Positions 12,468 to 41,748 of a DNA stretch of 49,016 nt are shown one piece after another. The first letter of the stretch is position 1; each line of letters opens with the position of its first letter. The notes beneath the pieces are model-generated. The model was not told the origin of the DNA and did no database searches. It saw only the letters and a program-made list of their open reading frames with translations. Source of the stretch: Muribaculaceae bacterium (GTDB lineage: Bacteria > Bacteroidota > Bacteroidia > Bacteroidales > Muribaculaceae). The position numbers and the translations under genes were made by a program. The DNA lies in NCBI GenBank assembly GCA_017453505.1, contig JAFTEU010000132.1, forward strand, positions 1 to 49,016, given 5' to 3'.

Positions 12468-12500
12468 CAAAGGTACTCATTTTACATCTAATTCTGCAAA
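12468..12500 (-). promoter_or_regulatory. Vegetative-type promoter of nfeD-qmcA
   Basis: Minus strand TTTG (12500-12497), 21-base spacer, TACCTTTG (12475-12468); an exact fit to the Bacteroidota consensus. Leader to the nfeD ATG is about 80 bases. Its TTTG shares bases with the sigma-54 -12 element, so the two promoters should exclude each other. Confidence 0.7.
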
Positions 12501-12510
12501 TTTTATGCCA
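12495..12510 (-). promoter_or_regulatory. Sigma-54 (RpoN) promoter motif upstream of nfeD-qmcA
   Basis: On the minus strand the 16 bases read TGGCATAAAATTTGCA, an exact fit to TGGCAYR-N4-TTGCW with the GG and GC dinucleotides at -24/-12 spacing. The predicted start is about 12484, giving a leader of about 100 bases. The other SPFH gene of this window has the same motif (41733-41748). I did not locate an enhancer-binding protein gene here. Confidence 0.6.
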
Positions 12511-12727
12511 AAAATCGGCCAAAATTCCCCAATGACTACCGATGGCCGCCAAAATTTTGAATTCTCAAGCGGTTAAAATGACTCTAATGCCTGTTTTTCA
12601 ATAGATTTCGGGTTTTGGGCAATTGACTCAGAAAAATCGAGTGGGGAGAGTCGTTGGCTTTTTTGTGGCTATAGCCCTGCCTGCGTGTTTTTATTGTTGA
12701 AACGGGTGGCAAAACCTGCCATTTATT
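12511..12727. other. Intergenic stretch without a visible gene
   Basis: This part of the nfeD/ybeY spacer is AT-rich. A small hairpin TGGCA/TGCCA near 12706-12720 sits just before the ybeY -33 box. I see nothing else that I can support. Confidence 0.4.
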
Positions 12728-12757
12728 TTTGTTTATCAAAATAATGTGTTATCTTTG
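12728..12757 (+). promoter_or_regulatory. Promoter of the ybeY-mnmG-apt-uvrC run
   Basis: TTTG (12728-12731), 18-base spacer, TATCTTTG (12750-12757); exact fit. The start would be near 12764, which excludes the upstream in-frame codons and supports the ATG at 12795. Confidence 0.75.
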
Positions 12758-12794
12758 TCTCCCGTTTTTCAAGGCATACCTTAAATGTACTGTT

Positions 12795-13238
12795 ATGACC
12801 GAGATTGTTTATATGACGCATGGCAATGTTGAGATGCCCAAGCTGGATGAAACAGCAGTCCGAGACTGGATTGTTGAGGTTGCCAGCAGGCATGGCCAGC
12901 GAGTGGGCTGCTTGACCTATGTCTTCTGTGACGATGAGTATATCCTGTCGACTAACCGTGAGTTTCTCGGCCATGATTACTATACCGATATCATCACATT
13001 TGATTATACCAATTCCCGTCACATTGCCGGCGATATGGTCATTTCGCTGGATACAGTGCGCAGCAATGCAGAGATGCTGGGAACCGATTACCGTACCGAA
13101 CTCATGCGTGTCATCATTCATGGCGTGCTCCACCTGTGCGGCATCAACGATAAGGGACCTGGCGAGCGTGAGATCATGGAGCAACACGAGAATGATGCTC
13201 TTGCTGTGTTACCCAGCAACATTTTCCTGAACGATTGA
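12795..13238 (+). CDS. ybeY: rRNA maturation RNase YbeY
   Basis: Zinc-dependent endoribonuclease involved in 16S rRNA 3'-end maturation and ribosome quality control. 147 residues from the ATG at 12795. The metal motif reads VIIHGVLHLCGINDKGPGER: the first two His of HxxxHxxGxxH are present and the third position is Lys. To my knowledge this replacement is usual in Bacteroidota YbeY rather than damage. The core FLGHDYYTDIITFDY and the ending region with AVLPSNIF are typical. First gene of a tight run: mnmG starts 14 bases after its stop. Confidence 0.93.
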   Translation: MTEIVYMTHGNVEMPKLDETAVRDWIVEVASRHGQRVGCLTYVFCDDEYILSTNREFLGHDYYTDIITFDYTNSRHIAGDMVISLDTVRSNAEMLGTDYRTELMRVIIHGVLHLCGINDKGPGEREIMEQHENDALAVLPSNIFLND

Positions 13239-13252
13239 TTTATTCTCCCGAG

Positions 13253-15130
13253 ATGAGAAACGACTATGATGTCATAGTGGTGGGTGCCGGTCATGCCGGA
13301 TGTGAGGCTGCTTGTGCTGCCGCACGGCTGGGTTCGCGCACGTTGCTTATTACCATCGACATGAACAAGATTGCCCAGATGAGCTGTAATCCCGCCGTGG
13401 GAGGTATTGCCAAGGGCCAGATTGTCCGTGAGATTGATGCCCTGGGTGGTCAGATGGGGGTTGTCACCGACCGCAGCAGTATCCAGTTCCGCATGCTCAA
13501 CCGCAGCAAGGGACCGGCCATGTGGAGCCCTCGTTCCCAGTGCGACAGACAGCGGTTTATCCTCGAGTGGCGACAGGTGATTGAAAACACCCCCAACCTT
13601 TACTTGTGGCAGGATAGTGTCGTTGAATTCGTCATCGAGGGTGGGGTAGTGAAGGGCGTGAAAACCGAGCTGGGCATGACTTTTACCGTTAGTGCTGTGG
13701 TCTTGACTGCCGGCACGTTCCTCAATGGATTGATGCATGTGGGCCCTGTCCAGACACCTGGTGGTCGGGTTTCTGAGCCTCCTGCAAGGGGCATCACCGA
13801 GCAATTAATGTCGCTTGGCTTCACTGTCGGACGGATGAAAACGGGTACACCGCCACGCTTGGATGAAAGGACTATTGATTTTTCGCAGTGCATCACGCAG
13901 GAGGGTGAGCAGGATTTCCACCATTTCTCTTATCTTCCTGGCGTCAAGTCCCAGCTTCCTCAGCGACCTTGCTGGATTGTGCATACCAATGAGCAAGTCC
14001 ATGACGTGCTGCGCAAGGGTCTGCCGCAGTCGCCGCTCTATAATGGCCAGATCAAGAGTGTCGGCCCTCGTTATTGTCCCAGCATCGAGACCAAGATAGT
14101 GACCTTTGCCGATAAAACTTCACACCAATTATTTATCGAGCCCGAGGGCGCAACGACCCATGAGATGTACCTCAATGGCTTCTCGTCATCCTTGCCCTGG
14201 GGTGTGCAGATCGAGGCCCTGCGCCAGATTCCCGCTCTCAGGGAAGTGCATGCTTTCCGTCCAGGATATGCCATCGAGTATGATTTCTTCGACCCGACAC
14301 AGCTCAAGCACACACTGGAGTCCAAACTGGTGAAAAACCTGTTCCTGGCAGGCCAAGTTAACGGCACAACAGGCTATGAGGAAGCGGCAGGGCAGGGGCT
14401 CATCGCAGGTATTAATGCCCACCAGAATGTCGCAGGCGGCGAACCGTTCACCCTGGCCCGCAACGAGGCCTACATCGGTGTGCTGATTGATGACCTGGTG
14501 ACCTGTGGTGTGGATGAGCCTTACCGCATGTTCACTTCTCGTGCCGAGCATCGCATTCTTTTGCGTCAGGACGACGCGGACATGCGTTTGACCGAGAAAG
14601 GGTATCATCTGGGCCTTGCCACCCGTGAGCGTTATGAGTTGATGTGCTCCAAGCGTGAGCAGATTGAAGGCTTTGTGGCCTTCTGCCGCGAGTTCACGGT
14701 GAAGTCTGTTGTCGTTAACCCGTTGCTGTCGGAACTTGGTATGAATCCGTTGGCGCAGGGTCAGCGCCTGCATGACCTGTTGCTCAGGCCTCAGCTCAAC
14801 GTGGCATTACTGTCACGGGCGCTGCCCGAGCTGCAAGAGCGGATTGATGCCCTTGAATCAGCCCGACGTGATGAAATTGTCGAGGCGGCCGAGATTGCCA
14901 TCAAGTATCGAGGCTATATTGAGCGCGAGACGCTCATTGCCGACAGGGTGTCGCGGCTTGAGAATGTGGCGCTCAAGGGGAAGTTTGACTATTCCCAGAT
15001 TCATCAGATTTCTACTGAAGCTCGTCAGAAGCTGCAGGCCATTGACCCCGAGACGGTGGGCCAAGCCTCCCGCATTCCAGGTGTGTCGCCAAGTGATATA
15101 AACATTCTGCTCGTTCTGTTGGGCAGATAA
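13253..15130 (+). CDS. mnmG: tRNA uridine-5-carboxymethylaminomethyl modification enzyme MnmG (GidA)
   Basis: FAD-dependent enzyme that, with MnmE, adds the carboxymethylaminomethyl group to U34 of certain tRNAs. 625 residues, normal length. I chose the ATG at 13253; the upstream in-frame TTG at 13235 would overlap ybeY. FAD motif VIVVGAGHAGCEAACAAARLG near residues 6-25, MSCNPAVGGIAKGQ, and the C-terminal motif GTTGYEEAAGQGLIAG. mnmG is often beside parAB or the origin in bacteria; here two parS sites lie immediately downstream, which fits an origin-proximal position. Confidence 0.96.
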   Translation: MRNDYDVIVVGAGHAGCEAACAAARLGSRTLLITIDMNKIAQMSCNPAVGGIAKGQIVREIDALGGQMGVVTDRSSIQFRMLNRSKGPAMWSPRSQCDRQRFILEWRQVIENTPNLYLWQDSVVEFVIEGGVVKGVKTELGMTFTVSAVVLTAGTFLNGLMHVGPVQTPGGRVSEPPARGITEQLMSLGFTVGRMKTGTPPRLDERTIDFSQCITQEGEQDFHHFSYLPGVKSQLPQRPCWIVHTNEQVHDVLRKGLPQSPLYNGQIKSVGPRYCPSIETKIVTFADKTSHQLFIEPEGATTHEMYLNGFSSSLPWGVQIEALRQIPALREVHAFRPGYAIEYDFFDPTQLKHTLESKLVKNLFLAGQVNGTTGYEEAAGQGLIAGINAHQNVAGGEPFTLARNEAYIGVLIDDLVTCGVDEPYRMFTSRAEHRILLRQDDADMRLTEKGYHLGLATRERYELMCSKREQIEGFVAFCREFTVKSVVVNPLLSELGMNPLAQGQRLHDLLLRPQLNVALLSRALPELQERIDALESARRDEIVEAAEIAIKYRGYIERETLIADRVSRLENVALKGKFDYSQIHQISTEARQKLQAIDPETVGQASRIPGVSPSDINILLVLLGR

Positions 15131-15131
15131 T

Positions 15132-15147
15132 TGTTCCACGTGAAACA
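15132..15147 (+). promoter_or_regulatory. parS centromere site 1
   Basis: TGTTCCACGTGAAACA is an exact match to the ParB-binding consensus TGTTNCACGTGAAACA. It fills over a third of the 43-base spacer between mnmG and apt. Confidence 0.85.
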
Positions 15148-15173
15148 AAATTATTATAACATATTGATTAACA

Positions 15174-15707
15174 ATGAATAAGCAAGAATTAGAAAGAGTA
15201 AAGAGTGTGGTGCGCAACATTCCTGATTTCCCTGTTCCCGGAATTCAGTTCAAGGACTTGACCACCGCCTTCAAGGACCCCGAGGCACTCCAGATCATGA
15301 CGCGTGCCATGGTTGACCTGTATCGCGATGCAGGCATCACCAAGGTCGTCGGAATCGAAGCGCGCGGCTTTATCGGCGGCGCAATCCTGGCCACCCAGCT
15401 GAATGCCGGCTTTGTGCCCCTGCGCAAGCCCGGTAAGCTGCCCGCAGAGGTTGTCCAGAAATCTTATACCAAGGAATATGGCACCGACACGATTGAGATC
15501 CACAAGGATGCCATCACCCCCGATGACGTTGTCGTCATCCATGATGACCTGCTTGCCACCGGCGGCACGATGCTGGCAGCCTATGAGCTGGTGAAGTCGA
15601 TGAATCCCAAGAAGATTTACATCAACTTCATCTGTGACCTGGAAGTCCTGCATGGTCGTGAGGTGTTCCCTGCTGATGTGGAAATCACATCTCTCTTCAC
15701 GTTTTAG
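15174..15707 (+). CDS. apt: Adenine phosphoribosyltransferase
   Basis: Purine salvage enzyme converting adenine and PRPP to AMP, cytosolic. 177 residues, normal length. Starts MNKQELERVKSVVRNIPDFP; the PRPP-binding motif VVVIHDDLLATGGT is near residues 121-134, and VGIEARGFIGG precedes it. Part of the ybeY-mnmG-apt-uvrC run, an arrangement I recognise from other Bacteroidales. It starts 43 bases after mnmG, downstream of the parS site. Confidence 0.96.
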   Translation: MNKQELERVKSVVRNIPDFPVPGIQFKDLTTAFKDPEALQIMTRAMVDLYRDAGITKVVGIEARGFIGGAILATQLNAGFVPLRKPGKLPAEVVQKSYTKEYGTDTIEIHKDAITPDDVVVIHDDLLATGGTMLAAYELVKSMNPKKIYINFICDLEVLHGREVFPADVEITSLFTF

Positions 15708-15737
15708 GGACATCAGTAAGAAAAGGCCTTTCCACTG

Positions 15738-17603
15738 ATGACCGACGAACTGAAACTCAAGCTGTCGTTGCTCCCCGATGATCCTGGCGTTTACCGCTAC
15801 CGCAATCGGGAGGGCACCATCATCTATGTGGGTAAGGCCAAGAACCTCAAGCGGAGGGTCAATTCCTACTTTAACCGTGAGCATGTGTCGGTGCGCACCA
15901 CGATGCTTGTGCGAAATATTGCCGACCTGGAATATACCGTCGTCAATACCGAGGAAGAGGCCCTCGACCTCGAGAACGCACTCATCAAGGAGTATCAGCC
16001 GCGCTACAATGTCCTGCTCAAGGACGACAAGAGCTACCCATGGATCTGCATCTCGGGTGACCTGTATCCCAGGGTTTACATCACCCGTGATGCTCGGGCC
16101 AAGGGTGACCGCTTCTATGGCCCATATCCCAAGACAGAGGTCGCCAAGGTCCTGATCGACACTATTCGCCAGATTTACCCGTTGCGCACTTGCCGCTTGA
16201 ATGTTTCACGTGAAACAATCGACGAGGGCAAGCATCGCCTGTGCCTGCAATACCACATCCATCGCTGCGAGGGGTGTTGTAAAGGCTTGGTGACACCTGA
16301 GCGTTATGGGGAATACATCAGCGAGATCAGGCAGATCCTCAATGGAGACACCCATGTGCTCATGGATGTGCTCATGGACCAGATGCAGCAGCTGGCGGGA
16401 GAATTGCGCTTTGAGGAGGCCGAGGTGATCAAGCGTCGCTACAAGATGCTGGAGCACGTGCGCCGCCGCTCGGTCATCGTCAGCCCCAGCATCCATAACA
16501 TTGACATCTTCGGCCTGCTGCGGGATGATGATGCGGCATGGGTTAACTTCATGCACATGCGGGGTGGGGCAGTGGTGCAGTCGCTCACGCTGGAATACCG
16601 TCTCTCGACGCACGATGAGACCGATGCTGAGATCATGTCGATGGCCATATCCGAGGTTCATCAGCGCTTTGCCGACACCTATCGCCGTGACCGAGTCACC
16701 GAGGTGATGGTCAATGTAGAGCCCGATGTCGAATTTGCGGGACTTACCTTCGTCATACCCCAGCGTGGTGATAAAAAGCACCTGCTTGACATTGCCGTCA
16801 AGAACGCGACCCAGCGCCGTACCGATCGCCTGCGCATGATGGAAAAGCTCAATCCAGAGCAACGCACCACCCGCACGCTGACCACCATGCAGCGCGACCT
16901 GCGCATGTCCGTCTTGCCGCGTCATGTCGAGTGCTTTGACAACAGCAACATCAGCGGTTCCAATCCAGTGGCGTCGTGTGTGGTCTTCCGCAACGCTAAG
17001 CCCTCCAAGAAGGAATACCGCCACTTTAATATCAAGACCGTAGAAGGAGCCGACGACTTCGCATCGATGCGTGAGGTCGTCACCCGCCGCTACAGCCGGC
17101 TGGTGCAGGAAGGCCAGGAATTGCCACAACTGCTCATCGTGGATGGAGGCAAGGGGCAGGTCAATGCTGCCATCGAGGCGCTTGACCAGATAGGGCTCCA
17201 TGGCCAGATTACCGTTGTCGGTATCGCCAAGCGTCTCAACGAGGTCTATTTCCCTGGCGATAGTGTGCCCCTCTACATCGATAAGAACAGCGAGACGCTG
17301 CATGTGATACAGCGCCTGCGCGATGAGTCTCACCGCTTTGCCATCACCTTTCATCGCAAGCAACGCAGCAAGAGCCAGGTTCATAGTGCCCTCGATGAAG
17401 TTCCCGGCATCGGCCCGAAGACCCGCACCTTGCTGCTCAAGCACTTCAAGTCGCTCAAGCGCATCCGTGAGTCCAGCGGGGAAGACTTGGCGGCAGTGAT
17501 CGGCCCGTCCCGTGCTGCCTCGCTGCGTGCCGTGCTTGGCGCTGCGACGGGCACTGGTGTTCAAGAGGTCGAAAAGACCGATGATAGTGAAATGAAATCT
17601 TAG
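15738..17603 (+). CDS. uvrC: Excinuclease ABC subunit UvrC
   Basis: Nuclease that makes both incisions around UvrAB-marked DNA lesions. 621 residues: GIY-YIG-type nuclease at the start (GVYRYRNREGTIIYVGKAKN), UVR motif near residues 205-240, the RNase H-like nuclease with HVECFDNSNISGSNPVAS and LLIVDGGKGQV, and C-terminal helix-hairpin-helix VPGIGPKTRTLLLKHF. The segment coding NVSRETI (about residues 155-161) is itself a perfect parS site, so the protein sequence there is partly dictated by the DNA signal. Starts 30 bases after apt. Confidence 0.96.
   Translation: MTDELKLKLSLLPDDPGVYRYRNREGTIIYVGKAKNLKRRVNSYFNREHVSVRTTMLVRNIADLEYTVVNTEEEALDLENALIKEYQPRYNVLLKDDKSYPWICISGDLYPRVYITRDARAKGDRFYGPYPKTEVAKVLIDTIRQIYPLRTCRLNVSRETIDEGKHRLCLQYHIHRCEGCCKGLVTPERYGEYISEIRQILNGDTHVLMDVLMDQMQQLAGELRFEEAEVIKRRYKMLEHVRRRSVIVSPSIHNIDIFGLLRDDDAAWVNFMHMRGGAVVQSLTLEYRLSTHDETDAEIMSMAISEVHQRFADTYRRDRVTEVMVNVEPDVEFAGLTFVIPQRGDKKHLLDIAVKNATQRRTDRLRMMEKLNPEQRTTRTLTTMQRDLRMSVLPRHVECFDNSNISGSNPVASCVVFRNAKPSKKEYRHFNIKTVEGADDFASMREVVTRRYSRLVQEGQELPQLLIVDGGKGQVNAAIEALDQIGLHGQITVVGIAKRLNEVYFPGDSVPLYIDKNSETLHVIQRLRDESHRFAITFHRKQRSKSQVHSALDEVPGIGPKTRTLLLKHFKSLKRIRESSGEDLAAVIGPSRAASLRAVLGAATGTGVQEVEKTDDSEMKS
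16202..16217 (+). promoter_or_regulatory. parS centromere site 2, inside uvrC
   Basis: TGTTTCACGTGAAACA, the perfect 16-base palindrome, 1070 bases from site 1 and within the uvrC coding sequence. Confidence 0.88.
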
Positions 17604-17615
17604 CTATTGATCGTG

Positions 17616-18647
17616 ATGGGACAGAGGGATGTACAGCTAGACAACTACAGGGCGCTCATGATCATGCATGTCCTGTTCATTCATGTGCTCTACTGGCTAT
17701 GGGACTGGGAGGAACCGTACATGTCGCTCGCGCTCTTTGAGATGGCAACGGTCTTTTTTGTCTCAGGCGCGTCCCAGGCGATGAGTAGGTCCAGACGCAG
17801 CTTGTGGTTAACCGTTGTGGGGCGCTTGCGCCGCGTGGTCATCCCGTTTTATATCTATGCCTGCGTGGTCATCGCCCTATTCGCGCTATTGACTGTGATG
17901 CTGGGTGACACTTCCCGTTTCGGTTTTGACCCGTTGCATCTGGGAAACTATCGTTGGGAAGATGTGCTGTCTGTCGTCTTGTGCCGTGATGTGCCGCAGG
18001 TGCCCAATAATACGCACTTATGGTTTATTGTACCATATCTGATACTGAGCTGCACTTTCCCGCTGCAGCAATGGCTCATTGATCGTTGTCCGAACCGTCA
18101 CTTGTATATGGCGGCATGTGTTGCGCTTTTCTTGCTGGTTCAGGCGGTCACAAGCAATGAATTGTTGTGCGAGGTGCTGTGCTATAACGTGTTTATGGTG
18201 GCTGGTTACCTCTATTACAAGCGTTGCAAGGTCTTGACTATCGTTGCGGTGTGCATGGCTGCAGCTGCCGTTCTTCTGGTCTATACCCTGATGATGGGAG
18301 GTGACTTCTGCCCCCTGCAGAGCCACAAGTTTCCGCCGGACTGGGTCTTCTTGTCCTATTGCGTGTTCGCACTATGCCTTGTATCGCTGGTATTGCGCCA
18401 TGTGACGATTCCCAGCAACCGTTTTCTGCGGCTGTGGAGTGAGCGTGGCTACACCATTTACTTGTACCAGAGCGCGGTGTTTGTAGCCGTGGTGATCCTC
18501 CGCTTGCACACCTACGGAAAGATTCCTGATTCACATGTTTGGCTTGCCTGTGACACCATTGCAGCCATCCTGCTTTCAACCCTCCTGTCCATGGCGACCT
18601 TCCCTCTCGAAAAATCAATCATGGGTCTCATGAGAACCAAGCATTAA
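17616..18647 (+). CDS. Acyltransferase 3 family membrane protein
   Basis: Integral membrane acyltransferase that typically O-acetylates or otherwise acylates surface glycans or lipids. 343 residues from the ATG at 17616; TTG and GTG codons just upstream are in frame but overlap or crowd uvrC. Starts with the family-typical DNYRALMIMHVLFIHV, in which the His of the R/H-containing first helix is present, followed by VFFVSGASQAM and about ten hydrophobic segments. It is 12 bases after uvrC, so probably cotranscribed with the repair gene; no functional link is obvious. A second, unrelated-looking member lies at 36232-37158. Confidence 0.82.
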   Translation: MGQRDVQLDNYRALMIMHVLFIHVLYWLWDWEEPYMSLALFEMATVFFVSGASQAMSRSRRSLWLTVVGRLRRVVIPFYIYACVVIALFALLTVMLGDTSRFGFDPLHLGNYRWEDVLSVVLCRDVPQVPNNTHLWFIVPYLILSCTFPLQQWLIDRCPNRHLYMAACVALFLLVQAVTSNELLCEVLCYNVFMVAGYLYYKRCKVLTIVAVCMAAAAVLLVYTLMMGGDFCPLQSHKFPPDWVFLSYCVFALCLVSLVLRHVTIPSNRFLRLWSERGYTIYLYQSAVFVAVVILRLHTYGKIPDSHVWLACDTIAAILLSTLLSMATFPLEKSIMGLMRTKH

Positions 18648-18691
18648 CCCATCTTGTGGCTCAAAAAAGGCGTAAAAACCAAAAAATCACT

Positions 18692-18699
18692 TACCTTTG
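18692..18699 (+). promoter_or_regulatory. -7 box of nadK, five bases from the ATG
   Basis: TACCTTTG followed by CACAC and the ATG at 18705. A start point 5-8 bases below the box would put transcription at or next to the ATG. No good -33 TTTG was found at the right distance. Confidence 0.5.
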
Positions 18700-18704
18700 C
18701 ACAC

Positions 18705-19571
18705 ATGAAACGAGTGTTAATCTTTGGCAATGCCTATCAGCAGGGAGACATCGACCGTGTCTGCGCCTTGCTGGAACACCTGCGGCAGCAGCAACTCCAC
18801 GTTGCCGTCGAGAGTGACTATCTGCACTACCTGAGCCGGCAGGGTAGGGTGGTGGATCTGCCCTCGTTTGGTACTGAACAGGTGCCAGAAGCCGACTTGG
18901 CGCTGTCGCTGGGAGGTGACGGCACGTTCTTGACGACAGCGATGTGGGTCTCGCGCCAGGGAATGCCCATTCTGGGCATTAATGTGGGCCACTTGGGATA
19001 CCTGACCGCTGGTCGGCTTGATGCCGACAGCGAGGTGATAGATGCCGTCCTGAAGGGTAATTACCGCATTGAGGAGCGCACGATGCTGCAGGTTGACAGT
19101 GATGCGGTCGAGATCGCTCATCCGTGGGCGCTCAACGAGATCGCCATCCTGCGTCACGACACGTCATCGATGCTAGATATGGAGACAAGGTTGCGCAGCC
19201 ACTCGCTGACGACCTATCGTGGTGACGGCCTTATCGTGAGCACTCCAACAGGCTCCACAGCCTACAACATGAGCGTCGGCGGACCCATAGTCGAGCCAAC
19301 CGCGGCCTGTCTGGTGTTGTCACCCATCTCTCCCCACTCGCTGACCATGCGTCCGCTGGTCGTGCGGGATGACAGTGTCATCACCGTGCGCACCCACACG
19401 CGAGCTACCCACTACGAGGTCAGTATTGACGGAGAGGTGGCCTTGTGTCCCACTGGTTCAACACTGACCATCAAGCGCGCTCCCTACTGTGCGCGTGTCG
19501 TCCAGCTGATGGATAATAACTTCGGCAGCACGTTGCGGCAGAAACTCCTATGGGGTACTGATCAGCGATAA
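18705..19571 (+). CDS. nadK: NAD kinase
   Basis: Phosphorylates NAD to NADP, the main source of NADP. 288 residues from the ATG at 18705; the open frame extends 17 codons upstream but a promoter box lies there. Motifs: ALSLGGDGTFLTTAMWVS (the GGDG signature, near residues 64-82), INVGHLGYLTAG, the NE...LRHD region, and GLIVSTPTGSTAYNMSVGG. Normal length and complete. Its own promoter box is five bases before the start. Confidence 0.95.
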   Translation: MKRVLIFGNAYQQGDIDRVCALLEHLRQQQLHVAVESDYLHYLSRQGRVVDLPSFGTEQVPEADLALSLGGDGTFLTTAMWVSRQGMPILGINVGHLGYLTAGRLDADSEVIDAVLKGNYRIEERTMLQVDSDAVEIAHPWALNEIAILRHDTSSMLDMETRLRSHSLTTYRGDGLIVSTPTGSTAYNMSVGGPIVEPTAACLVLSPISPHSLTMRPLVVRDDSVITVRTHTRATHYEVSIDGEVALCPTGSTLTIKRAPYCARVVQLMDNNFGSTLRQKLLWGTDQR

Positions 19572-19580
19572 TGATACGAT

Positions 19581-19622
19581 AAAAAGACGAGCCCGCAGTC
19601 TCCTGTGCGGGCTCGTCTTTTT
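19581..19622. terminator. Bidirectional terminator between nadK and a glycosyltransferase
   Basis: Perfect 17-bp stem, AAAAAGACGAGCCCGCA and its complement (19581-19597 and 19606-19622), with A-run and T-run on the two sides. Confidence 0.92.
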
Positions 19623-19640
19623 GATAGTGTATAGCTGTGA

Positions 19641-20780: not shown

Positions 20781-20838
20781 AATGCTTTAAGTTGTATTTT
20801 ATCTTGTTGTTAATAATCTGCGGCTAATATATCACATT

Positions 20839-20882
20839 GAGTCATGTCTTTGACTCTATTATCGTGACAACCTGCAAAGATA
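20839..20882 (-). promoter_or_regulatory. -7 box and leader dyad of the glycosyltransferase gene
   Basis: Minus-strand TATCTTTG at 20882-20875. In the leader just below it a perfect dyad GAGTCA-N6-TGACTC (20839-20844 and 20851-20856) could be an operator or small hairpin. No -33 TTTG at the right distance. Confidence 0.45.
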
Positions 20883-20935
20883 GTCTTTTTTTCATTAAGT
20901 AAGGGCTTTTATGCTCTAAATTTGAAAAAAAGGGT

Positions 20936-20943
20936 TAATTTTG
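20936..20943 (+). promoter_or_regulatory. -7 box of the DUF4923 lipoprotein gene
   Basis: TAATTTTG, 18 bases before the ATG at 20962. The nearest TTTG (20921-20924) is only 11 bases upstream, too close. Confidence 0.4.
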
Positions 20944-20961
20944 CGGCAAATATAGTTGGAA

Positions 20962-21576: not shown

Positions 21577-21595
21577 GGAACTGTAGATACAAGAT

Positions 21596-21636
21596 AACGA
21601 GAGGAAGACCCATCGTGTGGTGATCTTCCTCTCGTT
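21596..21636. terminator. Bidirectional terminator after the DUF4923 gene
   Basis: 13-bp perfect stem AACGAGAGGAAGA / TCTTCCTCTCGTT (21596-21608 and 21624-21636) between convergent genes. Confidence 0.8.
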
Positions 21637-21658
21637 GTTCAGTATCCGGTGTTTCCCA

Positions 21659-22546: not shown

Positions 22547-22551
22547 CAGAC

Positions 22552-26125: not shown

Positions 26126-26210
26126 TGGTGCCCAGGGCGGGACTCGAACCCGCACACCTTGCGGCACACGCACCTGAAACGTGCGCGTCTACCAATTCCG
26201 CCACCTGGGC
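26126..26210 (-). tRNA. tRNA-Leu(CAG)
   Basis: Minus strand begins GCCCAGGTGGCGGAATTGG and ends CCCTGGGCACCA. Acceptor stem pairs GCCCAGG with CCTGGGC. Anticodon stem CACGT/GCGTG encloses loop TTCAGGT, anticodon CAG. A long variable arm (GTGCCGCAAGGTGT) marks a class II tRNA. The 3' CCA is encoded. Confidence 0.96.
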
Positions 26211-32245: not shown

Positions 32246-32248
32246 GTA

Positions 32249-32341: not shown

Positions 32342-32371
32342 ATCCCGGCCCCTCTCTGATATGTACAATAG

Positions 32372-32408
32372 ATGCCCCCAGTGTCGCTCAGAGCGTCGCT
32401 GGGGGCAT
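32372..32408 (+). terminator. Strong hairpin after the restriction remnant
   Basis: 10-bp perfect stem ATGCCCCCAG/CTGGGGGCAT (32372-32381 and 32399-32408) with an inner GCTC/GAGC pairing. No T-run. A second hairpin GCGGGG/CCCCGC follows at 32433-32450. Confidence 0.5.
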
Positions 32409-32511
32409 GTGTGAAGATCGTAATATATCGGCGCGGGGATTACGCCCCGCATAAGGAAAAAACGCTCTTGTTGAGATTCTCTCTTTATCCTTTAAACTCT
32501 AACCATTATCC

Positions 32512-32543
32512 TTCAATAATTGCCGAGAACGGCAATTATTGAA
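32512..32543 (-). terminator. Hairpin immediately after gyrB
   Basis: Perfect 14-bp stem TTCAATAATTGCCG / CGGCAATTATTGAA (32512-32525 and 32530-32543) starting next to the gyrB stop. No long T-run. Confidence 0.65.
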
Positions 32544-34568
<2,025 letters not shown>

Positions 34569-34581
34569 CTATAAAAACGTA

Positions 34582-34612
34582 CAAAATTACAAAAAATAGG
34601 CCATTTGCCAAA
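34582..34612 (-). promoter_or_regulatory. gyrB promoter
   Basis: Minus strand TTTG (34612-34609), 19-base spacer, TAATTTTG (34589-34582). Exact fit; leader of about 50 bases. Confidence 0.75.
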
Positions 34613-34783
34613 AGCTAAAAACCTTAAAAAACTATAATTTAAATCCCGTTTTGCCATTAGGAAAAGCAATAGGAAATAATCCTGTTTTCCGTCTCATAGA
34701 ATTAATATAAGAAGCAAGGATTTTTGTGCAAAAGTGGGGTAAAAACCATAGATTTGGACGAAAATCAATTTACTGGGCATGTT

Positions 34784-34817
34784 TTGTGTCGTGTTTGCGG
34801 CATTTCAACTAACTTTG
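34784..34817 (+). promoter_or_regulatory. Promoter of the RsmF-like gene, -7 box five bases from the ATG
   Basis: TTTG (34784-34787), 22-base spacer, TAACTTTG (34810-34817), then CAGCA and the ATG at 34823. It excludes the upstream in-frame codons. Confidence 0.6.
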
Positions 34818-34822
34818 CAGCA

Positions 34823-36211
34823 ATGAAACTGCCCGATGAGTTTATAGAGCAACTGCGCGGCCTGCTGCCTGACGAGTGGGAGAAGCTGGCCGCTGCTATC
34901 ACGTCGAGCGAGCCGAGTGTGTCGGTGCGTGTCAACGAGGCCCGTGGGGTAGGGGTACCTCAGGGATCCCGTCGTGTGCCTTGGTGCGGACAGGGTTTTT
35001 ATCTGGCTGACCGTCCCACGTTCACCTTCGACCCAGGCTGGCATGCCGGGCAGTACTATGTGCAAGATGCATCGTCGATGTTTATTGCACATGTCGTCAG
35101 TCACTTTGTGCATGAGCCCGTACGTTATCTCGACCTGTGTGCCGCTCCTGGCGGCAAGACCACTGCCGCCATGCAGGCGTTGCCTCAAGGGTCGCTGGTG
35201 GTTGCCAACGAGATTGTGCCGCCGCGTGCCCGCGTGCTGGCCGACAACGTCATCCGCTGGGGCAATCCCCGATGTGTGGTGACAAGCAATGCGCCTGCCC
35301 ACTTGGGTCGGTTCAACGATTTCTTTGATGTGATTGCCACCGATGTGCCGTGCAGTGGAGAGGGCATGATGCGCAAGGATGATGAGGCCGTCGGCCAATG
35401 GTCGCCGACCCTGGTCAAGCAGTGCGCCCAGCGCCAGCGAGAAATTCTTGCCGGCGTGTGGCCGGCTTTGCGTCCTGGAGGCCTGCTTATCTACAGCACG
35501 TGTACCTATAACCGCCAGGAGAACGAGGAAATAGCCGATTTTATCGTCCAGGAACTGGGTGCCGAGTCGCTTGAGGTGCCCATTGAGGCCTCGTGGAACA
35601 TTCATCCCGCCATTGATAGCAACTGCCGTTGTTACCGCTTCATGCCACATCGTGTGGATGGCGAGGGACTCTTCATGGCGGTCTTCCGAAAGTCTGGAAA
35701 TGGCTCACGGCAAGATGTCCGTGTCAAGGAGAAAAATGCTAAAAAAGTCGATGAAATCGGCCGTAACTGGCTTTCTTGCCCTGACGAGTACACCATCGGT
35801 CAGCTGGGTGACCTGCTTGTTGCCGTGCCTCAAGATATCCAGCGCGAAGTCGCTGCCCTGCGCTCCTCGTTGAACGTGCTGCATGCCGGTGTGGAACTGG
35901 CCACTGTGATGGGTCGCAAGACGGTGCCCCACCATGCACTTGCCATGTCACTGGCCAGGGCCGAGGACGCATTTCCGTCCTGTGAGGTGGACTACCCGAC
36001 GGCCTTGCGCTACCTGCGAGGCGAATCCATCTCTGTAGATGCCCCGCGTGGACATGTCCTGATATCCCATGAGAGGGCTGTACTGGGCATCGCCAATAAC
36101 TTGGGGAACCGTGCCAACAACCTTTATCCCAAGCCACTGCGCATTCTCAGTACCCATGTGCCCGCTGAGAAGCCGCTGGTGCTCCATAGGGCATCTGCCG
36201 ATTGTCGATAA
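34823..36211 (+). CDS. NOL1/NOP2/Sun-family rRNA (cytosine-C5) methyltransferase, RsmF-like
   Basis: SAM-dependent enzyme that methylates a cytosine in 16S rRNA. 462 residues from the ATG at 34823. SAM motif VRYLDLCAAPGGKTTAAMQA (near residues 100-120), catalytic-loop motif VIATDVPCSGEGMMRKDDEA (Cys of PCSGEG), and second Cys motif GLLIYSTCTYNRQENEE. After the catalytic core comes a C-terminal RNA-binding region like that of RsmF (RsmF_methylt_CI and PUA-like), including LGDLLVAVPQDI and the end GNRANNLYPKPLRI. The symbol is withheld because RsmB- and RsmF-type members are close. Confidence 0.88.
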   Translation: MKLPDEFIEQLRGLLPDEWEKLAAAITSSEPSVSVRVNEARGVGVPQGSRRVPWCGQGFYLADRPTFTFDPGWHAGQYYVQDASSMFIAHVVSHFVHEPVRYLDLCAAPGGKTTAAMQALPQGSLVVANEIVPPRARVLADNVIRWGNPRCVVTSNAPAHLGRFNDFFDVIATDVPCSGEGMMRKDDEAVGQWSPTLVKQCAQRQREILAGVWPALRPGGLLIYSTCTYNRQENEEIADFIVQELGAESLEVPIEASWNIHPAIDSNCRCYRFMPHRVDGEGLFMAVFRKSGNGSRQDVRVKEKNAKKVDEIGRNWLSCPDEYTIGQLGDLLVAVPQDIQREVAALRSSLNVLHAGVELATVMGRKTVPHHALAMSLARAEDAFPSCEVDYPTALRYLRGESISVDAPRGHVLISHERAVLGIANNLGNRANNLYPKPLRILSTHVPAEKPLVLHRASADCR

Positions 36212-36231
36212 CCAATTATAAACCAGACAGC

Positions 36232-37158
36232 ATGATGATGTTTGAATTCTCTGACTTCAGCAAATACAGGATCCAGTTGATGGGCGTATCGATTGTGGCC
36301 GTCATGCTGTTTCATGCCTTCGGCCGCTATTCTCTTTTCGCTTGGGGAACGGTGGGCGTTGAGTTTTTTCTCGTGATATCGGCCATCGGGTTGTACTTCT
36401 CTTTGTCGAGGGATCAGCGGCTGCTTCCCTTCTACGGGAGAAGGCTGATGCGCATCCTGCCGGCCTATCTTATCGTGGCAATCATCTATTACCTGTTGAT
36501 GGATTGGGGCAATCTGGATTGGAGCAGGTTTCTGTATAATATCTCGGGACTGTGTATCCTGGAGGGGCGGCTGGACTTCTGGTTCATTGGTCTAATCCTT
36601 GTCTGCTATCTGGTAGCCCCGTTTTACTACAGGTTGATGAAATACAAGTACTCCATTCTGCTGCCGTTTGTAATGTTGGTGGTGTGCTTTGCCCTGGGAT
36701 TGCGTTTTGTATCCCTGGAAATCGTTCTTAATAGGTTTGCCATCTTCTTTATGGGTCTCCATCTGGCCCGCTGGGTGCATGAGAAAAAGCGGATTCAGGT
36801 GCCACACCTGTGGCTATTGTGCCTGGTGGCGTTCTTGATGATTGTGGTTGTTAATCAGGTGGATTGTTATGTCGGGTTCAGGCGTGTTGCGGGCTTTATC
36901 CTGTCGATTCCCGTACTGATGGGGTGTATCCTCTTGCTCAAGAAGGCCTCGCGGCCTGTTCATGTCGGCCTTATCTTCATGGGAGCTATGTCGCTGGAAC
37001 TTTACATGATTCATGAGAGAATCTGCTTGTATATGCTTCTTGGCCAGATGGATTATAACATCCGCGGTATCATCAGTTTCCCCATCGCCATCCTATTGGC
37101 TTACTTGCTGCACAAAGCACTTGGCTTGGCATTGGGAAATGTGGGTGCAAAACGCTGA
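36232..37158 (+). CDS. Acyltransferase 3 family membrane protein
   Basis: 308 residues from the ATG at 36232 (three Met codons in a row; any could start). About ten hydrophobic segments. Family features: GVSIVAVMLFHAFGRYSLFA with the conserved His, GVEFFLVISAIGLYFSLSRD, FYGRRLMRILPAYL, DFWFIGLILVCYLVAPFYYR, and SLELYMIHERICLYMLLG. Probably acylates a surface polysaccharide or lipid; substrate unknown. It follows the RsmF-like gene by 20 bases and may share its transcript. Confidence 0.85.
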   Translation: MMMFEFSDFSKYRIQLMGVSIVAVMLFHAFGRYSLFAWGTVGVEFFLVISAIGLYFSLSRDQRLLPFYGRRLMRILPAYLIVAIIYYLLMDWGNLDWSRFLYNISGLCILEGRLDFWFIGLILVCYLVAPFYYRLMKYKYSILLPFVMLVVCFALGLRFVSLEIVLNRFAIFFMGLHLARWVHEKKRIQVPHLWLLCLVAFLMIVVVNQVDCYVGFRRVAGFILSIPVLMGCILLLKKASRPVHVGLIFMGAMSLELYMIHERICLYMLLGQMDYNIRGIISFPIAILLAYLLHKALGLALGNVGAKR

Positions 37159-37234
37159 AAAGAACAAGTAAAGAAGTAAAGAAGCGCCCACCCCGCTATG
37201 GACGAGCGCTCACATCACTATTTGAATCGGCTAT

Positions 37235-37516
37235 TTACAGGTTCAGGTAACCTTTTAATGCTTCGACATACTCCTCGAAGGCCTTGCGACCTTGCTCGGT
37301 GACCTGGCAAGTGGTGCGCGTCTTCTTGCCGACAAAGCCCTTGGTCACAGTAATGTAACCGGCATTGGACAGTTTGTCAATTTGCACGCTCAGGTTGCCC
37401 GCTGTGGACTCGGTCTGCTCCTTGAGGTAGACAAAGTCGGCCTCCTCCACATTCATCAGGATGGACATCACCGCCAGCCGCAACTGGGAGTGAAGTATGG
37501 GGTCCAACTCTTTCAT
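37235..37516 (-). CDS. Small winged-helix transcriptional regulator (HTH_34 type)
   Basis: 93 residues. MKELDPILHSQLRLAVMSIL opens the winged helix, followed by the recognition helix SVQIDKLSNAGYITVTKGF and the wing GKKTRTTCQVTEQGRKAF. It matches the small DNA-binding regulators that in Bacteroidales pair with a multi-pass membrane protein. Its ATG overlaps the stop of that upstream gene (ATGA, 37513-37516), so the two are translationally coupled. Two copies of a TATAAA-N4-TTTATA palindrome near the operon promoter are likely its own operators (inference). Confidence 0.82.
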   Translation of the reverse strand: MKELDPILHSQLRLAVMSILMNVEEADFVYLKEQTESTAGNLSVQIDKLSNAGYITVTKGFVGKKTRTTCQVTEQGRKAFEEYVEALKGYLNL

Positions 37517-38136
37517 CGCTGTTGACGGGCTTTATGGTTAATCACGTGGCCGGGGATGATCATCATGCAGGCAAAGGCAACCATGAACAGCGGCAGGAAC
37601 CAGTTGATGAGCAGGCGCGCGTTGCCAACGATGCAGCAGAATGTGAATAGCCCGACGCACAGTCCGATGGCACCGCCCACGACGAGAGACCTCTCTTTCA
37701 CGATAATGCCCTGGGCCATTTCGGCCATCGGCACGATGAGGAGCGGGATGGCAAACATCATCCCCCAGGCGTTAAAGCCCTTGAGGCCAAACCCGAAGCA
37801 GAACACCGTCGCAACCACCGATGCCAAGCCAACGATAGTCCAGATTTGAGACGTGATCTTGTCTGAGTAACTCTTGACGCCGCTTTTGAGGTCACTCTTC
37901 CTCGACATGATGGGGGTGGCGATACCGCCAACGATACCTATTGCGAACCACAACCAGTTCCAGGCCGGGTTGTGCGTCATGACAAGCATGATCCACACTA
38001 GGGCGGTCACAATCACCGTGAGGTAGCCCCACATGAGCAAAATGTTGCCGTCACCGATGTAGCGCTCTCGGGTGCGCTGGATCATTGAGGTGATTAATTC
38101 GAGGCTCTCGCGCTCGGTCATTTTCTTCTCTTCCAT
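37513..38136 (-). CDS. Multi-pass membrane protein coupled to a winged-helix regulator
   Basis: 207 residues from the ATG at 38136 (MEEKKMTERESLELITSMIQ). The open frame extends 36 codons upstream to 38244, but the promoter -7 box and an operator palindrome lie there, so the longer form is not plausible. A soluble N-terminal helix precedes six hydrophobic segments, for example LLMWGYLTVIVTALVWIMLV and LLINWFLPLFMVAFACMMII. No known enzyme motif. The pairing suggests a membrane-stress or ligand sensing module, but nothing in the sequence shows its signal. Confidence 0.78.
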   Translation of the reverse strand: MEEKKMTERESLELITSMIQRTRERYIGDGNILLMWGYLTVIVTALVWIMLVMTHNPAWNWLWFAIGIVGGIATPIMSRKSDLKSGVKSYSDKITSQIWTIVGLASVVATVFCFGFGLKGFNAWGMMFAIPLLIVPMAEMAQGIIVKERSLVVGGAIGLCVGLFTFCCIVGNARLLINWFLPLFMVAFACMMIIPGHVINHKARQQR

Positions 38137-38162
38137 AACTTGAATTGTTTTTTTTGATTGGT

Positions 38163-38178
38163 TATAAAGTGGTTTATA
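38163..38178. promoter_or_regulatory. Operator candidate 2: TATAAA-N4-TTTATA
   Basis: TATAAAGTGGTTTATA in the leader of the membrane protein-regulator operon; extends to TTATAAA-N4-TTTATAA. Same geometry as the copy at 38246-38261, 83 bases away (about eight helical turns). Confidence 0.6.
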
Positions 38179-38241
38179 AAATAAACTAAAACTCTCCGAA
38201 AAAAGAACAGCACTCGCGATTACCGTTCTCATTTCACGCTG

Positions 38242-38273
38242 CAAATATAAACTAGTTTATAATATAAACCAAA
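38242..38273 (-). promoter_or_regulatory. Promoter with operator candidate 1 in its spacer
   Basis: Minus strand TTTG (38273-38270), 20-base spacer, TATATTTG (38249-38242). The perfect 16-base palindrome TATAAACTAGTTTATA (38246-38261) lies between the two boxes and overlaps the -7 box, the usual place for a repressor. Confidence 0.72.
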
Positions 38274-38349
38274 TAACATCCAATTATTTAACATCTTTTA
38301 ATATCATTATCTCATCAAGTAACTGTTCAATCCATCTGTGGCGTGCTAT

Positions 38350-38556
38350 TCATTGCCTATTAGCTAACTCGGTTATCACGTCATTGACAATGTATTCGTC
38401 GCCGAGGAGTTGCAGGCCAGATTCAGGGTCATTGAACAATTCAAACGTGTGTGAATTGTAAAAAATATCCATTGCCCGCTCTTGTGAAATGCTCAGGCGG
38501 TCAGCAAGTATGGTAATGATACGGGCGGTCTTGCGCCACAATACTTGGTCTCTCAT
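38350..38556 (-). CDS. DUF3791-family small protein
   Basis: 68 residues. ITILADRLSISQERAMDIFY and DPESGLQLLGDEYIVNDVIT match the DUF3791 pattern. Preceded by a strong Shine-Dalgarno sequence AAGGAGG seven bases before the ATG, which is rare in this genome. It lies 122 bases after the DUF3990 gene in a three-gene cassette. DUF3791 proteins commonly accompany DUF3990 proteins and may be their antitoxin or partner; that role is inference. Confidence 0.72.
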   Translation of the reverse strand: MRDQVLWRKTARIITILADRLSISQERAMDIFYNSHTFELFNDPESGLQLLGDEYIVNDVITELANRQ

Positions 38557-38678
38557 TGTTATCCTCCTTGGTTGACGATTGGCTGGGATGAGATAAAGCT
38601 CAAGCAGTTATCGATAATGGTTTGGTTGCTAATGCACATCTGGTGAGTGGGTCGGGCAAATCTCAGTTGGCCAAGGGC

Positions 38679-39065
38679 TTACTCTACTGTGATTCGGCCG
38701 CTATAGTAGTCCTCTACCGTGTCAATAACCTGATCATTGGCAACACCACCCTCAATGATATCATATTCAGCCCACGGTTCTTCTCCGCAGCGGCTGGCAA
38801 CAATAAAATCGAGCCACTGCCGGTCATATTGATCTAATCTTAGGATTTTAATATCATCAGGCAATAAATCTGTTTGAAAACTGTAGATTGAGAGAATTGG
38901 AGTATTTGTTGCTCGGGTAATGCAAACGCGTCTTGCCCACCGCTCGGCCTGGTCGCGCAAGTTTGTGACATAAAAACCAGGTCCAAAGTCTAACTCGCGT
39001 CGTCCGACACCCACTAACGGGGACTCGACGGCAACAAATGAGCCATGATATAGCGTTTGATTCAC
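38679..39065 (-). CDS. DUF3990-family protein, ADP-ribosyltransferase-like
   Basis: 128 residues from the GTG at 39065, whose bases overlap the stop of the upstream gene (GTGA, 39065-39062) and which has a strong Shine-Dalgarno AAAGGAGG eight bases before it. An in-frame TTG at 39089 would bypass that site. The start NQTLYHGSFVAVESPLVGVG followed by RRELDFGPGFYVTNLRDQAE and WARR fits DUF3990, a fold I associate with ADP-ribosyltransferases (YHGS and FGPGFY..T motifs); a family ending YDIIEGGVANDQVIDTVEDY is present. Probable toxin of a toxin-antitoxin-like module. Confidence 0.74.
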   Translation of the reverse strand: MNQTLYHGSFVAVESPLVGVGRRELDFGPGFYVTNLRDQAERWARRVCITRATNTPILSIYSFQTDLLPDDIKILRLDQYDRQWLDFIVASRCGEEPWAEYDIIEGGVANDQVIDTVEDYYSGRITVE

Positions 39066-39313
39066 TGTAATGCCTCCTTTCTTTCCCAATTCTTGAGCGC
39101 TTCCATCACATTCCAGACGACACCTTCTATACTCTCGGTATGTAAAGTGTCATAGCAATCAAATAATAGCGAACGAATAAGCCCATAACGCTTCAAGCGG
39201 TTATGAACCTCGGTTGCGGGGATGCCCATTTTTTGGGCTGTCGCACCAATGGCCATTGTTGCAAACTGGACTTTATAGTCCGCTGTTGCTCTTGCTGTTG
39301 AATTTGACATCAT
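39062..39313 (-). CDS. DUF3791-like small protein, first gene of the cassette
   Basis: 83 residues (two Met codons at the start). VQFATMAIGATAQKMGIPAT then EVHNRLKRYGLIRSLLFDCY and DTLHTESIEGVVWNVMEAL fit a DUF3791-type protein. It is translationally coupled to the DUF3990 gene by the GTGA overlap. Two DUF3791 members flanking one DUF3990 suggests one is an antitoxin and the other a second partner. A -7 box TATATTTG lies upstream at 39339-39332. Confidence 0.68.
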   Translation of the reverse strand: MMSNSTARATADYKVQFATMAIGATAQKMGIPATEVHNRLKRYGLIRSLLFDCYDTLHTESIEGVVWNVMEALKNWERKEALQ

Positions 39314-39331
39314 CAGGATTGTTTATCGTTG

Positions 39332-39339
39332 CAAATATA
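39332..39339 (-). promoter_or_regulatory. -7 box of the DUF3791-DUF3990 cassette
   Basis: Minus strand TATATTTG, 18 bases before the ATG. No -33 TTTG at the usual distance. Confidence 0.45.
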
Positions 39340-39424
39340 CAATAATTCCAGATGCTTTTACAACCTTAGGTCAAAAAACGCATTTTTTACATCGTTTTTC
39401 CGCTTCGTGTCGCTGAAAAGTGAA

Positions 39425-39466
39425 AAAGTTTAGTGGATTGGGGATTCCCTCTAACCACTAAACTTT
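39425..39466 (-). terminator. metG terminator
   Basis: Perfect 12-bp stem AAAGTTTAGTGG / CCACTAAACTTT (39425-39436 and 39455-39466), followed on the minus strand by CTTTTTCACTTTT. Confidence 0.75.
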
Positions 39467-39503
39467 AATCTCTATACTTCAAGCGGCTTATGCCTCTTGA
39501 ATA

Positions 39504-41597
39504 TCACCCCACCTGACAACCGGGCTTGACGGGGCCTGTCGGGCCGATGACCACAAGGCGTCCGCCGGCATCCTCGGCGCTCAGGATCATGCCCTGGCTC
39601 TCGATGCCCTTGAGCTTGCGGGGCGGGAAGTTGGCGATGAAGCACACCTGCTTGCCCACCAGTTCCTCGGGCTCATACCACTTGGCGATGCCGCTGATGA
39701 TGGTGCGGCCCTGGATGCCGTCGTCGATGGTGAACTTCAGCAGTTTGTCAGCCTTTTTCACCTTCTCGCACTCGAGGACGGTACCCACACGGATGTCGAG
39801 TTTGGCAAAGTCGTCAATGGTGCACGAGGTGGTGACGGGCTTGGGCTTGAAGTTGTTGATGATGTTCTCTTGCTTGATGCGCTCCAGACGGTCAACCTGT
39901 GCTTGGATAACGTCGTCCTCGATTTTCTCGAACAAGAGCACGGGCTGCTCCAGTTGTCGTCCGGCGGGCAGGATGTCGATGTCACCCAAGCGGTTCCAGT
40001 CAACCTTTTCCATGCCGAGCATGCTGCGCAGCTTTGCTGAGCTGAAGGGCAGGAACGGTTCAAAGGCGATAGAGAGGTTGGCCGTGATCTGCAGTGCCAG
40101 ATTCATGATGGTCTGTACACGGGCCATGTCGGTCTTGGCCAGTTTCCAAGGCTCGGTGTCGGCCAGGTACTTGTTGCCGCAGCGGGCCAGGTTCATGGCA
40201 TCCTTCAGGGCCTCGCGGAAGTGGAAATGCTCGATGTGGTCGCTCAACACGGCTTTCACGCCCTTGAACTCCTCGATGGCGGCGCGATCCACATCGGACA
40301 ACTCGCCTGCTTCGGGCACCTTGCCCTCACAGAATTTGTGAGTCAGCACCAGGGCACGGTTCACAAAGTTGCCCAGAATGGCCACCAGCTCGTTGTTGTT
40401 GCGTGCCTGGAAGTCCTTCCAGGTGAAGTCGTTGTCCTTGGTCTCGGGGGCATTGGCCGTGAGCACATAGCGCAGCACGTCCTGCTTGCCGGGGAAGTCC
40501 ACCAGATACTCATGCAGCCAGACAGCCCAGTTGCGGCTGGTCGAGATCTTGTCGCCCTCGAGGTTCAGGAACTCGTTGGCCGGCACGTTGTCGGGCATGA
40601 TGTAGTCGCCGTGGGCCTTCATCATCGTCGGGAAGATGATGCAGTGGAACACGATGTTGTCCTTGCCGATGAAGTGGATGAGACGCGTGTCCTGCTGCTG
40701 CCACCACTGCTGCCAGGTACCCCAGCGCTCGGGCTGGGCATCACACAGTTCCTTGGTGTTGCTGATGTAGCCGATGGGTGCGTCAAACCACACGTACAGC
40801 ACCTTGCCGTCGGCACCCTCGACAGGGACGGGGATGCCCCAGTCCAGGTCGCGGGTCATGGCACGGGGCTGCAAGCCGTTGTCAAGCCATGACTTGCACT
40901 GGCCATACACGTTGCTGCGCCACTCCTGGTGACCCTCCAGAATCCACTCCTTGAGCCAGCCCTCATACTCGTTGAGGGGCAGGAACCAGTTGGTGGTGTC
41001 CTTGAGCACGAGCGGGTGGTCGCTGTCCTTGGCGTGCGGGTTGATGAGTTCGGTGGGGTCCAGGTCGCGGCCACAGCCGTCCTCGCACTGGTTGCCCTTG
41101 GCGGCGGGGTGGTGGCAATAGGGGCACTCGCCCTCCACGTCACGGTCGGTGAGGAACTTGCCGTCCTGCTCGTCATAGAACTGCTTGGTGGTCTTCTCGA
41201 TGAGCTTGCCGTCATCATAGAGTTTGCGGAAAAACTCGGCGGCAAACTGGTGATGGGTCTTGCTGGTCGTGCGGCTATAGATGTCGTATGAGATACCCAA
41301 CTCCTCAAACGAATCCTTGATGATCTTGTGGTAGCGGTCCACCACCTGCTGCGGGGTGATGCCCTCCTTGCGGGCGCGCTGGGTCACGGGCACGCCGTGC
41401 TCATCGCTGCCACCAACAAACAGCACATTCTCGCCCTGCAGGCGCAGATAGCGCACATAGATGTCGGCGGGAACGTACACGCCAGCCAGATGGCCGATGT
41501 GAACGGGACCGTTAGCATAGGGCAACGCCGTCGTCACCAGCGTGCGTGCAAATTTCTTCTCTTTCTCCATCTTGTCTATATCTTTTTGACTTGTCAT
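39504..41597 (-). CDS. metG: Methionyl-tRNA synthetase with C-terminal tRNA-binding domain
   Basis: Charges tRNA-Met. 697 residues. Class I signatures: HIGH as [20 protein letters not shown], and the KMSKS loop as [13 protein letters not shown] (a Lys-Ile-Ser-Thr-Ser form usual in this phylum). Zinc knuckle [19 protein letters not shown]-terminal EMAP-like/Trbp111 domain (about 590-697) with [20 protein letters not shown] and [10 protein letters not shown], which helps dimerisation and tRNA binding. The ATG at 41597 gives a short extension before the catalytic start; the second Met (DKMEKEKK) is an alternative. Confidence 0.97.
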
Positions 41598-41613
41598 TTC
41601 ACATTTAGAGGTG

Positions 41614-41621
41614 CAAAGGTA
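41614..41621 (-). promoter_or_regulatory. -7 box of metG
   Basis: Minus strand TACCTTTG, 16 bases before the ATG at 41597. No clear -33 box. Confidence 0.45.
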
Positions 41622-41732
41622 AGAAAAAGTTTTGAGTTCTGGCTTCCTAACCCCTAGTTTCTAGCCAAATGACTATTTCATAGCCGATGATTGGCGGTTT
41701 TTCATGCCGTTTGGTTGTAAAAATAGGTTGCT

Positions 41733-41748
41733 TGGCATGATTTTTGCA
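41733..41748 (+). promoter_or_regulatory. Sigma-54 (RpoN) promoter motif upstream of the flotillin gene
   Basis: TGGCATGATTTTTGCA fits TGGCAYR-N4-TTGCW exactly, with GG and GC at the -24/-12 distance. The predicted start near 41760 leaves a leader of about 80 bases before the flotillin ATG. No vegetative-type promoter of comparable quality was seen in this spacer. Confidence 0.65.

Follow-up and report, generated by a model that had tools for sequence, protein, structure and literature searches.

The stretch of DNA analysed here, referred to throughout as the window, comprises 49,016 bases from an uncultured gut bacterium of the Muribaculaceae, whose genome amounts to 2.99 Mb in 188 contigs and is 88.8% complete. 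The window carries two loci for SPFH proteins, an nfeD-qmcA pair and a flotillin gene, each of which is preceded by a predicted sigma-54 promoter. The features of these loci are:

10923..11888, minus strand: gene for a QmcA-like SPFH (Band_7) protein (Pfam Band_7, E 1.1e-35)
11934..12383, minus strand: nfeD (Pfam NfeD, E 2.7e-15)
12495..12510, minus strand: predicted sigma-54 promoter of nfeD-qmcA, an exact match, with its -24 GG at 12509-12508, its -12 GC at 12497-12496 and its start at 12484
41733..41748, plus strand: predicted sigma-54 promoter of the flotillin gene, an exact match, with its -24 GG at 41734-41735, its -12 GC at 41746-41747 and its start at 41759
41840..43324, plus strand: flotillin gene with SPFH and Flot domains (Pfam Band_7 and Flot; the match to the NCBIfam FloT model lies under its cut-off)

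The Pfam assignments agree with the NfeD and SPFH identities given in the original prediction. The pattern TGGCAYRN4TTGCW, for which the reversed pattern served as control, has two exact matches on the two strands of the window, TGGCATAAAATTTGCA at 12510-12495 (minus) and TGGCATGATTTTTGCA at 41733-41748 (plus); these are the two motifs that had been claimed, and there is no further exact match on either strand. With the C of the GC dinucleotide set at -12, leaders of 101 and 81 nucleotides (nt) separate the predicted starts from the ATGs at 12383 and 41840, as expected from the proposed distance of about 80-100 bases. When one mismatch is allowed, the window holds 4 matches against 2.87 expected, so that the loose pattern is uninformative at this scale. 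Whether the two exact matches are real sites or products of chance is undecidable from the window by itself.

A scan of the whole genome, proposed earlier as a check, finds 26 exact matches against 2 for the reversed control, and at 20 of them a plausible gene on the same strand follows. The same excess is found across the 101 genomes of the genus (that of the window included), which contain 2468 matches against 227 for the reversed pattern, with means of 24.4 and 2.2 per genome, and each genome exceeds its own control. Of the 79 genomes sampled from the family, 75 belong to other genera, and these show a weaker, twofold excess (400 against 189). The highest numbers outside the genus are 24, 14 and 13 exact matches (genomes G027, G018 and G064), and expansion of the sites may therefore have arisen more than once.

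The site before nfeD-qmcA is conserved within the genus. QmcA is present in 95 of the 101 genus genomes, and nfeD leaders were examined in 71 of the genus genomes, consisting of the best-scoring ones together with a hand-picked spread of the remainder. The sigma-54 site is exact in 58 of these leaders and has one mismatch in 6. Among other genera, where 31 genomes had a QmcA match, none of 27 nfeD loci has an exact site, 4 of these loci having fewer than 450 upstream bases. No sigma-54 site precedes nfeD in two genomes of genus g29, even though their QmcA is 84-87% identical to the query. About 40-100 bases upstream of the sigma-54 site of nfeD, close relatives (L122-L150) share a conserved block around CTGAGAATTNAAAATT, which is absent from many of 40 more distant nfeD loci; for this reason it is perhaps part of the control region of the divergent neighbour and not of the activator's.

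The site before the flotillin gene is conserved as well. Fifty flotillin loci were compared, of which 24 are labelled Bacteroidales or its families, many of them from ruminants, and 26 belong to Lachnospiraceae or other non-Bacteroidota. Within 400 bases upstream of the 24 Bacteroidales genes, the site is exact in 19, has one mismatch in 3, two mismatches in 1 and three mismatches in 1. The last of these, L083, possesses an exact sigma-54 site 416 bases up from flotillin, above a repeat array. None of the 26 non-Bacteroidota loci has an exact match or comes closer than two mismatches. When the window's own locus and that of G017 are added to the Bacteroidales set, 21 of 26 leaders are exact within 300 bases upstream. 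Loci L071 and L077 appear identical and may come from one genome. Among many genomes the flotillin upstream DNA above the sigma-54 site varies while the site stays. A flotillin of this type is carried by only 2 of the 79 sampled family genomes, both from this genus, and was therefore probably gained. In the 97 leaders of both kinds (71 nfeD and 26 flotillin), spacers of 1-3 or 5-8 bases give no match and the 4-base spacer alone occurs. Chance as the origin of the motifs is thus ruled out by the reversed-pattern, spacer and orthologue controls.

Tandem repeats with sigma-54-like or promoter-like sequence were observed at two places. L014 (1382-1511, on contig 86 of G000) contains two 65-base copies, the second of which extends into an exact motif, and the array of L083 lies between its site and flotillin. 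New promoters might arise from such repeats.

The search for rpoN and for a bacterial enhancer-binding protein (bEBP) finds one of each, together with four weak matches to PF00158. The single rpoN match (E 1.2e-44) contains core-binding and DNA-binding domains and passes the TIGR02395 cut-off of 277.35 with 323.2 bits. It is found in 78 of the 79 family genomes and in 98 of the 101 genus genomes; this near-universal presence, set beside the motif totals, indicates that the sigma factor is widespread and that its set of sites has been enlarged in the genus. The strong bEBP (220.8 bits to Pfam Sigma54_activat) is a protein of 417 residues with an AAA+ domain from residue 18, containing a GSFTGA loop of the GAFTGA type, followed by a lid domain and a Fis-type helix-turn-helix (HTH), and it has no receiver domain. 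Its gene lies 3' of an acyltransferase gene that carries a sigma-54 site and 5' of lptE (Pfam) and an open reading frame (ORF) that we read as SecG-like. At a threshold of E 1e-20, exactly one bEBP is found in 95 of the 101 genus genomes, two in G082 and none in five, and genomes of the family contain up to five. The second bEBP of G082 is an ordinary response regulator located, by our reading of the ORFs, next to a hybrid histidine-kinase-like ORF. PspF is itself a receiverless bEBP, and assignment of the protein as PspF was rejected, as its 266.1 bits lie below the model cut-off of 443.55.

The genes downstream of the sites are diverse. By our ORF reading, the 6 remaining sites of the genome lie within ORFs. 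Some of the 20 upstream sites are weaker cases: at L002, L004, L021 and L022 an ORF on the opposite strand runs across the site, L003 is 15 nt from an ORF start, and the ATPase ORF at L001, as listed, begins 392 nt downstream. The candidate targets named by Pfam include HSP70 (dnaK), an AAA ATPase that we assign to the Clp type from its domains, thioredoxin, and a sigma-70-type factor. Further targets are LemA, Bax1-I, DUF1232, YtxH, Pmp3, YbjN, NfeD and flotillin, as well as a semialdehyde dehydrogenase, a glycosyltransferase, a P-type ATPase, a maltose acetyltransferase type protein, a GNAT protein and the acyltransferase of the bEBP operon; two of the 20 genes have no Pfam match. Two other genus genomes were inspected, G082 at all 29 of its sites and G084 at 8 hand-chosen sites of 25. 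Sites in these genomes precede genes for Hsp20 (twice), Clp-type ATPases, LemA, Bax1-I, YbjQ, LolA, enolase and an M50 protease, and also nfeD, at distances of 22 to 383 nt, and many other sites there are intragenic. Because the list is largely made up of protein-folding and envelope genes, we take the sites to mark out a putative stress regulon of about twenty genes, directed at protein folding and the envelope.

The original prediction had proposed a narrower sigma-54 regulon devoted to membrane microdomains. In favour of that proposal, a site stands before each of the window's two SPFH loci. The name is too narrow, as sites also precede dnaK, the Clp-type ATPase, thioredoxin and lemA; 18 of the 20 upstream sites stand before genes other than these two SPFH loci (chaperone, Clp-type, redox, metabolic and other envelope genes), and G082 and G084 show a similar picture. 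A regulon devoted to microdomains is accordingly regarded as very unlikely.

The enrichment in the genome and the genus, the conservation of the sites at fixed spacing in orthologues, the single rpoN and the one strong bEBP together lend good support, at the level of sequence, to the sigma-54 promoters of the original claim, which as a whole is supported in part. The identity of the two sites as sigma-54 promoters is very likely, and co-membership of the two SPFH loci in one broad regulon is likely. We consider it quite probable, from the sequence comparisons, that both sites are working -24/-12 promoters and that one sigma-54 regulon, enlarged in this genus, takes in both SPFH loci.

Several observations weigh against this interpretation. 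The site is lacking at one mismatch or better from 7 of the 71 genus nfeD leaders, and the genomes and leaders of the genus are related sequences, not independent ones. Other genera show a twofold motif excess too, so that an excess as such does not set the genus apart. An rpoN match is missing from three genus genomes, among them G133, which is 92% complete and has 23 motif matches. In G173, also from the genus and 95% complete, rpoN is present, the bEBP is undetected, and there are 10 motif matches with an exact nfeD site; the absence of the bEBP is due either to an assembly gap or to recent loss. As the window's genome is 88.8% complete, another bEBP could be missing from it. Before the acyltransferase-bEBP operon, the window's genome has an exact site that is not conserved elsewhere: the 27 readable of 30 genus loci hold no exact and two one-mismatch sites. 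It is likewise exact in none of the 11 readable of 30 loci from other genera, and autoregulation of the bEBP was rejected as a general feature. The stress role of the regulon is taken from annotation. To these points are added a box of the primary sigma factor at many nfeD leaders and a search for activator sites, both considered below with the explanations that they bear on, not all of which are mutually exclusive with the sigma-54 regulon.

The motif before nfeD may be mainly a housekeeping promoter. The -7 box consensus of the Bacteroidota primary sigma factor is given as TAnnTTTG, with a -33 TTTG, in the accessible part of PMC7366714, and the window contains such a box:

12468..12475, minus strand: TACCTTTG, a TAnnTTTG -7-like box at nfeD (consensus from PMC7366714), whose -33 TTTG would be at 12500-12497, within the sigma-54 -12 element

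As TACCTTTG sits 21 nt after the TTG of the nfeD -12 element, the TTTG of that element may double as a -33 box, and sigma-54 would then be unneeded at this gene. A TAnnTTTG box 18-23 nt past the TTG is found in 30 of the 58 exact nfeD leaders, the window's included. It is missing, however, from the other 28, from all 21 exact flotillin leaders and from all 37 sites of G082 and G084 (intragenic ones included), and is found at 3 of 19 sites of G000 (nfeD included). A housekeeping promoter also leaves unexplained the conservation of TGGCA with its fixed spacer of 4 bases, and this explanation of the nfeD motif is judged unlikely.

A second promoter-like element is located at the flotillin locus:

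41766..41792, plus strand: TGTAG-N18-CGTC, which we take to resemble a promoter of extracytoplasmic function (ECF) sigma factors, lying 5' of the flotillin ATG and beginning 18 nt after the sigma-54 site

In B. subtilis, SigW controls floA and floT according to the available text of PMC8144471, and in a similar way an ECF sigma factor could be the true common regulator of both SPFH loci through this element, the sigma-54 sites being secondary. With a spacer of 16-19, TGTAG/CGTC occurs in 17 of the 71 nfeD leaders (among L122-L150) and 4 of the 26 flotillin leaders, against 0.18 per 97 in base shuffles. An extended form is found once, at the window's flotillin, in 544 kb made up of the window and those fetched loci that belong to neither nfeD nor flotillin; the reversed control is also found once. 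Of the 97 leaders, 76 lack the element, that of the window's nfeD among them, and most of these retain the sigma-54 site. The leaders are related sequences. In the window it has one exact match, and with one mismatch 9 matches against 7.98 expected. An ECF factor as the common regulator is rather unlikely, and the element would be an SPFH-specific second input. The contrast with Bacillus SigW drawn in the original prediction is not a clean one, in view of the ECF-like element below the flotillin site and in part of the nfeD leaders.

No clear shared activator-binding site was found around 20 sites of G000 by searches for inverted repeats and 6-mers, A-rich words and repeats being slightly above shuffles. 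This is in keeping with a motif that only looks like a -24/-12 promoter and is in fact bound by some unrelated protein. Against such a protein stand the exact sigma-54 consensus, the position upstream of start codons, and the presence of rpoN and a bEBP in nearly all genomes, and it is most improbable. Structured leader RNA was also rejected, with z values of -0.88 for nfeD and -2.09 for flotillin; an Rfam scan of window positions 10000-44000 gave no match, at the leaders or elsewhere, except a tRNA gene at 26129-26210 (minus strand).

The proposed regulon may be compared with three known systems. In Bacteroidota, Bacteroidia included, groups of chaperones and of ATP-dependent proteases, such as the Clp-type group COG0542, are enriched for predicted sigma-54 promoters, and B. 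thetaiotaomicron GrpE and GroES are stated to be sigma-54-dependent (PMC12316311, as far as its text was available). The presence of dnaK and a Clp-type ATPase in this genome's set resembles those heat-shock promoters, whereas the available parts of that study do not describe an expansion confined to one genus and served by a single receiverless bEBP. The words flotillin, SPFH, band 7 and COG0330 have no match in its main text. The B. subtilis SigW system, in the portion of PMC8144471 seen, is similar in having SPFH genes (those of FloA and FloT) as outputs of an envelope stress regulon; it uses an ECF sigma factor, whereas here sigma-54 is found and a second, ECF-like promoter is possible. 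PMC9239133 treats PspF, and also PspA together with band 7 and NfeD proteins; the phage shock system, so far as the available text of that source goes, shares with the present one the use of sigma-54 for genes that would protect the membrane. The present bEBP resembles PspF in having no receiver domain and an AAA+ domain followed by a Fis-type HTH. It differs in its score below the PspF cut-off and in lying 5' of lptE and the SecG-like ORF, and it would serve about 20 promoters.

Among the literature matches listed, judged by title and the start of the abstract, none links flotillin, SPFH, NfeD, band 7 or yqiK genes to sigma-54 or RpoN, and the sole match for Muribaculaceae and sigma54 concerns hyperlipidemia in mice. 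Word searches found no match for Bacteroid in PMC3162934, no RpoN or sigma factor in PMC13086221, on Pseudomonas SPFH proteins, and neither sigma54 nor rpoN in the B. thetaiotaomicron regulatory papers PMC12596196 and PMC7366714. Experimental accounts of sigma-54 in gut Bacteroidales appear to be few.

In the sigma-54 regulon that we favour, the holoenzyme would wait as a closed complex on the promoters of dnaK, the Clp-type ATPase, thioredoxin, lemA, Bax1-I, Pmp3, YtxH, nfeD-qmcA, flotillin and others. The single bEBP, freed or raised under protein-folding or envelope stress, would open these promoters jointly, and the SPFH and NfeD proteins would form the membrane-organising arm of the response. 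At the window's nfeD, where what is probably a housekeeping promoter shares bases with the sigma-54 site, the two forms of the polymerase would compete. We suggest more tentatively, as a possibility that falls somewhat short of an even chance, that sigma-54 and its single receiverless activator serve this genus as a general protein-folding and envelope stress sigma system, doing the work that falls to sigma-32, sigma-E or SigW elsewhere, with SPFH/NfeD as standing members and the probably gained flotillin wired in by an acquired sigma-54 promoter. A regulon of one sigma-54 and one activator, legible in the sequence itself, would provide a clean system for the switching of chaperones and membrane scaffolds in this phylum, and the entry of a newly gained gene into a regulon would offer a naturally replicated test.

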